Below, piece by piece: positions 23,584 to 25,516 of a stretch of 64,000 nt of DNA. Origin of the DNA: Edaphobacter lichenicola (GTDB lineage Bacteria > Acidobacteriota > Terriglobia > Terriglobales > Acidobacteriaceae); assembly GCF_025264645.1 (NCBI RefSeq), contig NZ_CP073696.1:62001-126000 (forward strand), given 5' to 3'. How positions within the stretch are numbered: position 1 is the first letter of the stretch; every line of letters starts with the position of its first letter. Under the pieces are notes generated by a model. It was not told where the DNA came from and did no database searches. It saw only the letters and a program-made list of their open reading frames with translations. The translations under genes were made by a program, and so were the position numbers.

Positions 23584-23769
23584 AAGTCTGTCCCATGATA
23601 CGGCTTACGAGTTGTCGGAACAAATGGATGGAAGGTGTTGATCCTGTTGTAAGATTCTTGGTGTAGGACGGTTTGACGTTTTCGATTTAGGCGCATCGTT
23701 TGGATGCAGATTGCGTCTAACACTACGAACGCGCGGCTTTGATGGCCGCGGGTTACTGAAGTAGTCGGG

Positions 23770-23925
23770 AGTTGCAACACCCCCGTGGGTTGGGTGAGGG
23801 CTTGAACGAGTCATCACAGTGAATCCGCTGCAACTTTAGCAGTGCATGCTTTCAACATCCCCGTCTCTGAGGTGAACGAGGTAGCGGCTAGCGCCGGTAC
23901 CGGGTGACCTTGCGAGACTGAAGGC
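23770..23925 (+). promoter_or_regulatory. Tandem NAD+-I (nadA-motif) riboswitch
   Basis: Two domains with the same architecture precede nadA. Domain 1 (23770-23835): outer stem AGTTGCA/TGCAACT, the unpaired 5' strand ACACCCCC, then stem GTGGGT/ATCCGC directly abutting the outer stem. Domain 2 (23848-23925): outer stem GCTTTCA/TGAAGGC, ACATCCCC, then stem GTCTC/GAGAC. The ACAnCCCC bulge and stem order match the NAD+-I class, known from acidobacterial nadA leaders. The 3' strand of domain 2 runs into GGCGGAG, the nadA ribosome-binding site, suggesting translational shut-off when NAD+ is bound. The remaining gap 23584-23769 is the tatB/nadA promoter region. Confidence 0.93.
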
Positions 23926-23933
23926 GGAGTACT

Positions 23934-25088
23934 TTGAACGGACTAATGGAGATCGCTTCGGCTGCGGCCGTGGCTGAGACTGTTGTAGATACGTGTTCCC
24001 TCGACAACTACCTTGCGCAGCCAGACCATACGATGGACGCGCGGATCGCTGCGGCGAGGGAGAAGCTTGGGACCGATGTCGTTTTGCTGGGGCACCACTA
24101 CCAGCGGGACGAAGTGATTCGGTTTGCGGACTTTACCGGTGATAGTTACAAGCTGTCGAAGGTAGCCGCGGAGACCGATGCGAAGTACATGCTGTTCTGC
24201 GGCGTGCACTTTATGGCTGAGACGGCGGATGTGCTTGGTCAGTCGTGGCAGCAGGTTATTTTGCCTGATTTGAATGCAGGTTGTTCGATGGCCGATATGG
24301 CGGAGATCGGGCAGGTGGAAGACTGCTGGGATTCGCTGGAGCGGGCGGGGATTACCGATGAGGCTTCGGGTGGGTTGATTCCGCTGACTTATATGAACTC
24401 GGCTGCTGCGATCAAGGCTTTTTGCGGTGAGCGGGGTGGGTTGGTTTGCACCTCCTCGAACGCTCGTGGCGCCTTCGAGTGGGCGTTTGCACGCGCGGGG
24501 AAGATCTTGTTTTTGCCGGATCAACATCTTGGACGGAACACTGCGTTCGCGATGGGGATTCCGTTGAGCGAGATGGTGGTGTGGGATCCGTACCAAATCA
24601 ACGGTGGATTGAGCCCGGAACGATTGAAGGCGGCGAAGGTCATTTTGTGGAAGGGTCACTGCTCGGTGCATCAACGGTTTTTGCCGGAGCATGTGGATCG
24701 CGTTCGCAGGGAAGAGCCAAAGATGCAGGTGATTGTGCATCCGGAGTGCCGGTGGGAGGTGTGCCAGAAAGCCGATACGGTTGGTTCGACTGAGAGGATT
24801 ATTCAGGCGATCGAGCAGGCGCCGGAGGGCTCCAGCTTTGCCGTGGGGACGGAGATCCACTTGGTGAATCGACTCGCGAAGCGGTTTGCTCCGCTTGGCA
24901 AGCGCGTGATTACGCTTGACGATTCCGGATGTCTTTGCACGACCATGTATCGGATCTCTCCGCAGCATTTGGCTTGGGCGCTGGAGAATCTGGTGGAGGG
25001 CCGGGTTGTGAATCGCATCAAGGTGGACGATGATGTGAAGCAGTGGGCGCGGGTTGCGCTTGACCGGATGTTGGAGATCAAGATTTGA
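23934..25088 (+). CDS. nadA: Quinolinate synthase
   Basis: A [4Fe-4S] enzyme condensing iminoaspartate with dihydroxyacetone phosphate to quinolinate. TTG 23934 is chosen because GGCGGAG lies four bases before it. The in-frame ATG at 23946 would be 16 bases away. The 384 residues show LLGHHYQRDEVIRFADFTGD, LPDLNAGCSMADM (cluster Cys), LVCTSSNA (cluster Cys), HPECRWEVC, GTEIHLVNRLA and DDSGCLCTTMY (cluster Cys). Expression should be set by the upstream NAD+ riboswitch. The stop overlaps the DUF2203 start. Confidence 0.97.
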   Translation: MNGLMEIASAAAVAETVVDTCSLDNYLAQPDHTMDARIAAAREKLGTDVVLLGHHYQRDEVIRFADFTGDSYKLSKVAAETDAKYMLFCGVHFMAETADVLGQSWQQVILPDLNAGCSMADMAEIGQVEDCWDSLERAGITDEASGGLIPLTYMNSAAAIKAFCGERGGLVCTSSNARGAFEWAFARAGKILFLPDQHLGRNTAFAMGIPLSEMVVWDPYQINGGLSPERLKAAKVILWKGHCSVHQRFLPEHVDRVRREEPKMQVIVHPECRWEVCQKADTVGSTERIIQAIEQAPEGSSFAVGTEIHLVNRLAKRFAPLGKRVITLDDSGCLCTTMYRISPQHLAWALENLVEGRVVNRIKVDDDVKQWARVALDRMLEIKI

Positions 25089-25516
25089 GCAAGACGTTTA
25101 CGTTGGGCGAGGCACAAACGTTGCTGCCGGTGGTGGAGGCACTTCTGAAGAGAGCACAGGAGGCGCAATCACGAGCGGCGCAGTTCGAGTACGAGATGCA
25201 GCAACTGAGTCATAGGATATTTCTGTCTGGCGGTATGCATGTGGATGTAAGTGTTGCCGCTCGACGCCGGGCGGAGCGGGAGAAGGCTGTTCAAGAGGCG
25301 AGAGACACGCTGACAGAGATCGATTCGATCGGCGTCCAGGTGAAAGATCTGCAGGAGGGGCTGCTGGATTTTCCTTACGTGATGGATGGGAGGACTGTGT
25401 TGCTCTGCTGGAAGCTGGGTGAGACGGCAATTACACATTGGCACGCAGAGGACGAGGGCTTCGCAGAACGCAAGCCTCTGGATTCACGGTTCGGTAAGAC
25501 CGAGCGGTTGAACTGA
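25085..25516 (+). CDS. DUF2203-family protein
   Basis: A 143-residue cytoplasmic protein. An N-terminal FTLGEAQTLLPVVEALLKRA, a long charged helix (about 20-95), and the conserved ending LLDFPYVMDGRTVLLCWKLGE with HWHAEDEGFAERKPL match the DUF2203 pattern. The TTG start overlaps the nadA stop (TTGA), so it is co-transcribed with nadA and shares the riboswitch. Biochemical role unknown. Conserved His/Asp/Glu near the end suggest a possible metal site. Confidence 0.88.
   Translation: MSKTFTLGEAQTLLPVVEALLKRAQEAQSRAAQFEYEMQQLSHRIFLSGGMHVDVSVAARRRAEREKAVQEARDTLTEIDSIGVQVKDLQEGLLDFPYVMDGRTVLLCWKLGETAITHWHAEDEGFAERKPLDSRFGKTERLN

Follow-up and report, generated by a model that had tools for sequence, protein, structure and literature searches.

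Two structured RNA domains stand in series ahead of nadA in Edaphobacter lichenicola, and the locus raises the question of whether two domains imply two ligands and a special regulatory response or whether the arrangement is the ordinary one of a described riboswitch class. An earlier note on this DNA placed two tandem domains before nadA, assigned them to the NAD+-I (nadA motif) class of acidobacteria, and expected two ligand-binding domains to give a steeper or two-threshold response. Both domains lie where that note put them, with the stems it gave, and the class assignment is upheld by the covariance model, the downstream gene, the relatives, and the literature, which agree that the element is an NAD+-I riboswitch. 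The expected response fares differently, as set out below.

When compared with Rfam 15, the window (the whole 64-kb stretch that was analysed) yielded two matches at the gathering threshold and no more, each to RF03013 (nadA riboswitch). The covariance search that the note had proposed thus places both domains above the gathering threshold of 37.5 bits (Table 1; E-values are for the whole 64-kb window against 4,227 families). No other Rfam family, NAD+-II included, matched in the window. In the 5.66-Mb genome these two domains are the sole RF03013 matches, and none was found in 14 control genomes.

Table 1. Features of the nadA riboswitch locus (positions are those of the window)
Feature	Position	Strand	Basis and reading
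NAD+-I riboswitch domain 1	23770..23835	+	RF03013, 56.3 bits, E 1.5e-10; read as ADP-moiety sensor
Bulge J1 of domain 1, ACACCCCC	23777..23784	+	Direct reading; class consensus ACANCCCC (PMC7297122)
AGUG strand, internal loop J2 of domain 1 (GYG clamp)	23818..23821	+	Direct reading
Interdomain linker, 12 nt	23836..23847	+	
NAD+-I riboswitch domain 2	23848..23925	+	RF03013, 41.3 bits, E 3.9e-6; read as expression platform
P1' 3' strand UGAAGGC	23919..23925	+	Direct reading; overlaps Shine-Dalgarno 5' half
Shine-Dalgarno sequence AAGGCGGA	23921..23928	+	Direct reading; anti-Shine-Dalgarno of the genome's 16S rRNA is CACCTCCTT
nadA, quinolinate synthase, UUG start, 384 aa	23934..25088	+	TIGR00550, 310 bits; PF02445, 324.5 bits

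A single-sequence fold of positions 23765 to 23960 yields both domains, but the folding energies are unremarkable (z-scores of −1.2 for the whole region, −1.5 for domain 1, and −3.1 for domain 2), and thermodynamic folding by itself would have missed the element. The whole-region z-score is the one point in favor of chance stem-loops that happen to resemble the motif, an explanation that is refuted by the E-values of the two matches, by the covariation of the helices, and by the retention of the element ahead of nadA across the family, and to which we give practically no credence. The E-values, the uniqueness of the matches in the genome, and the covariation of the domain 1 helices put the domains far beyond chance.

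Domain 1 is complete. Its outer stem P1 (AGUUGCA/UGCAACU) forms seven of seven pairs, the sixth being a C:G pair of the C6:G47 type; the ACACCCCC bulge follows; P1a (GUGGGUU/AAUCCGC) also forms seven of seven pairs, two of them G-U; and beyond P1a a GG stands opposite AGUG, so that the clamp is present. In domain 2, P1' (GCUUUCA/UGAAGGC) forms seven of seven pairs with one G-U, the bulge is ACAUCCCC, and the inner stem P1a' (GUCUC/GAGAC) has five pairs, then a bulged C, after which the helix continues. The bulges of the two domains each lie between two abutting paired stems, as does the ACANCCCC bulge of the class. That every helix is perfect or wobble paired is therefore true of P1, P1', and the domain 1 stem P1a but not of the second stem of domain 2. 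Likewise, a common layout extends to the outer stem, bulge, and abutting stem but not to the GYG internal loop (AGYG of domain 1), which domain 2 does not have.

The tandem layout is the norm of the class and not a peculiarity of the Edaphobacter copy. RF03013 RNAs were found in 84 of 120 sampled genomes of the Acidobacteriaceae, nearly all with exactly two copies; within the genus, each of the 14 other genomes sampled has the RNA. The remaining 36 family genomes, some of them near-complete, gave no match. Outside the family, 297 genomes of the phylum gave two matches, both below the cutoff at 27.7 bits; these were treated as chance, and by eye their flanks resemble protein-coding sequence. 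Among 80 close nadA loci from named genomes, a pattern search found two domains in 69 and at least one in nine more; of the last two, one is cut off where its contig stops at the gene, and the other has a gene start that differs from the assumed coordinate. Two sampled genomes with one match each were rejected as single-domain cases, one (G096) because a run of N in the assembly cuts the locus and the other (G101) because its second domain is visible by pattern. No single-domain copy was thus confirmed among the sampled family genomes, in agreement with the literature, in which two domains are described as a constant of the class (PMC9481103, PMC10702441). Phage copies of the RNA were sought and gave no match. 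The element is an ordinary member of a described class, known both in kind and in its host group.

The gene downstream is read as starting at UUG, which is kept in close relatives, while an in-frame AUG at 23946 is not. Across 120 tandems the start (UUG, GUG, or AUG) most often lies 8 nt after P1' (60 of 120). NadA identity, 95 to 96% at best, places the host in Edaphobacter, near strains that bear the name E. lichenicola. A DUF2203 gene (25085 to 25516) shares 4 nt with the end of nadA, and the two are probably cotranslated; upstream of nadA, a TatA/B-like gene and tatC run in the opposite direction.

The region between domain 1 and these Tat genes holds two further features. Directly upstream of domain 1 is a hairpin at 23735 to 23755 (CGCGGC-UUUGAUG-GCCGCG), with apparent compensatory changes, judged by eye, in Edaphobacter relatives (GCGAUC..GGUCGC, GUGAUC..GAUCAC, and ACGGCU..AGCCGU). 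It is possibly an extra element of the 5' untranslated region; the region from 23670 to 23760 has a folding z-score of −3.1. An imperfect palindrome, TTAGGCGCATC...GATGCAGATTGCGTCTAA, lies at 23687 to 23721, between tatA and nadA. Relatives conserve portions of its two arms (GCA and CGTC.AA); it could serve as an operator or form another hairpin.

The link between riboswitch and gene lies in the ribosome binding site. The canonical 16S 3' end occurs once in the genome, and the last base of AAGGCGGA is 5 nt ahead of the UUG. The 5' half of this Shine-Dalgarno sequence (AAGG) sits within the P1' 3' strand, and in the ensemble model P1' of the Edaphobacter sequence has a pairing probability of 0.97 to 1.0. 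In the same model G23927 and A23928 of the Shine-Dalgarno sequence are unpaired and outside P1', which counts against masking of the ribosome site by P1'. CUGAAGGCGGAGU is invariant in 24 Edaphobacter and Granulicella tandems. No intrinsic terminator was found after the riboswitch, and a transcriptional switch by way of such a terminator was rejected for want of any terminator-like site.

We therefore consider it very probable that the element represses nadA at the level of translation when the cofactor is abundant, with domain 1 as the sensor and domain 2 as the mask of the ribosome site. The present analysis shows what the element is and how it is built, its gene context and conservation, and that the Shine-Dalgarno sequence overlaps P1'; the ligand, the stoichiometry, and the gene-off direction come from the literature on other members of the class (PMC10702441, PMC7708056, PMC7297122, PMC9481103), for which the published mechanism has the ADP moiety bound by domain 1 and the ribosome site covered when P1' of domain 2 closes (PMC7708056, PMC10702441). 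By analogy with these members, we infer that the Edaphobacter copy behaves as they do and that the signal is relayed through coupling of its two domains. With its P1, ACANCCCC bulge, and GYG clamp, domain 1 would fold around the ADP portion of a single NAD+ (or around ADP or ATP); once occupied, it would favor folding of domain 2; and P1' would close over the 5' half of the Shine-Dalgarno sequence, block the ribosome, and so repress quinolinate synthase and with it de novo NAD+ synthesis. In crystal structures the GYG clamp pairs with CC of J1 (PMC7297122, PMC7708056); it preforms the domain 1 pocket, and domain 2 is without it here. Full-length NAD+-I RNAs do not discriminate between NAD+ and ADP or ATP in vitro (PMC10702441), so that the true effector is still argued.

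Conservation across 120 to 128 tandems, in which related sequences count many times, bears on the debated role of domain 2. When distinct tandems were compared, P1 and P1a of domain 1 were 97.6% paired with many double changes: in P1 at pairs 1, 3, and 5 (19, 38, and 39 sequences, respectively) and in P1a at pairs 2, 3, 6, and 7 (23 to 44 sequences). Pair 1 of P1 varies among G-C, A-U, U-A, and C-G, and the paired counts at pairs 3 and 5 exceed those of 500 of 500 shuffles. P1a' of domain 2 also covaries. P1' is GCUUUCA/UGAAGGC in 98 of 120 tandems, with the remaining changes almost only A-U or G-U equivalents, an invariance that is somewhat overstated, as domain 2 was located by its GCUUUCA strand in one comparison and by ACANCCCC in another. 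P1' is thus nearly invariant and yields no covariation signal, which fits a strand that doubles as the Shine-Dalgarno sequence.

The ligand site of domain 2 has kept one part and lost another. At the distance seen in domain 1, GYG occurs in domain 1 of 120 of 128 tandems and in domain 2 of 15; the clamp is missing from domain 2 in the other 113, the Edaphobacter copy included. Of the 128 domain 2 bulges, 116 read ACAUCCCC and 121 keep CCCC, only the second C ever changing (seven sequences), in a set that was selected on the domain 1 P1a pairs and not on the bulge. The bulge is conserved almost as strictly as that of domain 1, and the equivalents of C6:G47 and A7:U46 are present in domain 2 of all 120 scored tandems. 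Loss of the clamp with conservation of the bulge, a point made by one crystal structure, is thereby extended to the family.

These counts cut both ways for the model proposed by Chen et al. in 2020 (PMC7708056) and disputed in 2023 (PMC10702441), in which domain 1 is occupied already at low NAD+, and repression is triggered by another NAD+ that domain 2 takes up at millimolar concentration. The near-equal conservation of the bulge and the universal C6:G47 and A7:U46 equivalents speak for it, as do a crystal structure of a domain 2 with NAD+ and a KD of 3.4 mM, both from relatives (PMC7708056, PMC10702441). The clamp is nonetheless gone from most domain 2 copies, and published isothermal titration calorimetry on relatives gives a single ligand per full-length RNA (Hill coefficient, 1.0) and undetectable binding to domain II, which was put at 3.4 mM by fluorescence (PMC10702441). 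We regard a two-threshold sensor as unlikely, and the steeper or two-threshold response expected in the earlier note is unsupported. The reading that two domains imply a special response in the Edaphobacter copy is thereby corrected, and one more genome joins those with this known type of NAD+ feedback control.

A stoichiometry of one ligand per RNA (PMC10702441) would also suit a single NAD+ shared between the domains, with its ADP half in domain 1 and its nicotinamide half in domain 2, as Malkowski et al. (2019) hypothesized according to PMC9481103. It would account for a domain 2 bulge and stem that are strictly conserved despite loss of the GYG clamp. The nicotinamide mononucleotide moiety is, however, invisible in crystal structures of domain 1, and the full-length RNA binds ATP and ADP as well as NAD+ (PMC10702441, PMC7297122), and we think sharing of this kind quite improbable.

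The retention of CCCC in domain 2 together with the loss of GYG, and the cost to regulation of the published C13A mutation in domain 2, suggest that the CCCC strand may contact something other than its own internal loop: domain 1 in a docked full-length fold, or GG.GGA of the Shine-Dalgarno region as a direct mask. This is a speculative proposal that we would not expect to hold; if true, the latter pairing would give the expression platform a contact that the NAD+-I papers cited do not mention. Across 24 relatives RNAalifold prefers a fold in which the 5' strand of domain 2 pairs near the gene start (UUCAA and UCCCC with the start and Shine-Dalgarno regions), a point against masking by P1'. 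As a ground state this pairing was rejected, since it excludes P1' and, in the Edaphobacter sequence, is 4.1 kcal/mol worse and has a probability of ∼0.002. The N position of the bulge lends it no support, being U in 82 of the 87 sequences in which GGA follows P1' and in 39 of the other 41. In the Edaphobacter sequence, predicted pairing of the interdomain linker with the spacer and UUG start (23929 to 23937) would extend P1', but partner shuffles were equal or better in 220 of 500 cases within the clade and in 113 of 200 within length classes, giving no coevolutionary support.

Repression of nadA translation through domain 2 as expression platform thus remains the preferred reading, and it can be set beside known systems. 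With NAD+-I riboswitches (RF03013) the element shares its two domains, ACANCCCC bulges, 7-bp P1, and Acidobacteriaceae host, as well as the 7-bp P1a and GYG clamp of domain 1, the overlap of the Shine-Dalgarno sequence with P1', and the site ahead of nadA. Nothing material sets it apart: its domain 2 has an inner stem of 5 bp with a bulged C and a longer hairpin (78 nt), and most domain 2 copies of relatives are likewise without the clamp at that place. The NAD+-II riboswitch (pnuC motif) is also reported to sense NAD+-related ligands but has another fold and is associated with pnuC (PMC7749635, PMC10085692). The tandem glycine riboswitch similarly joins two homologous aptamers to one expression platform, and binding to its domain 1 is thought to stabilize P1 of domain 2 (PMC10702441), but it is unrelated in sequence, structure, and ligand, and both of its aptamers bind glycine.
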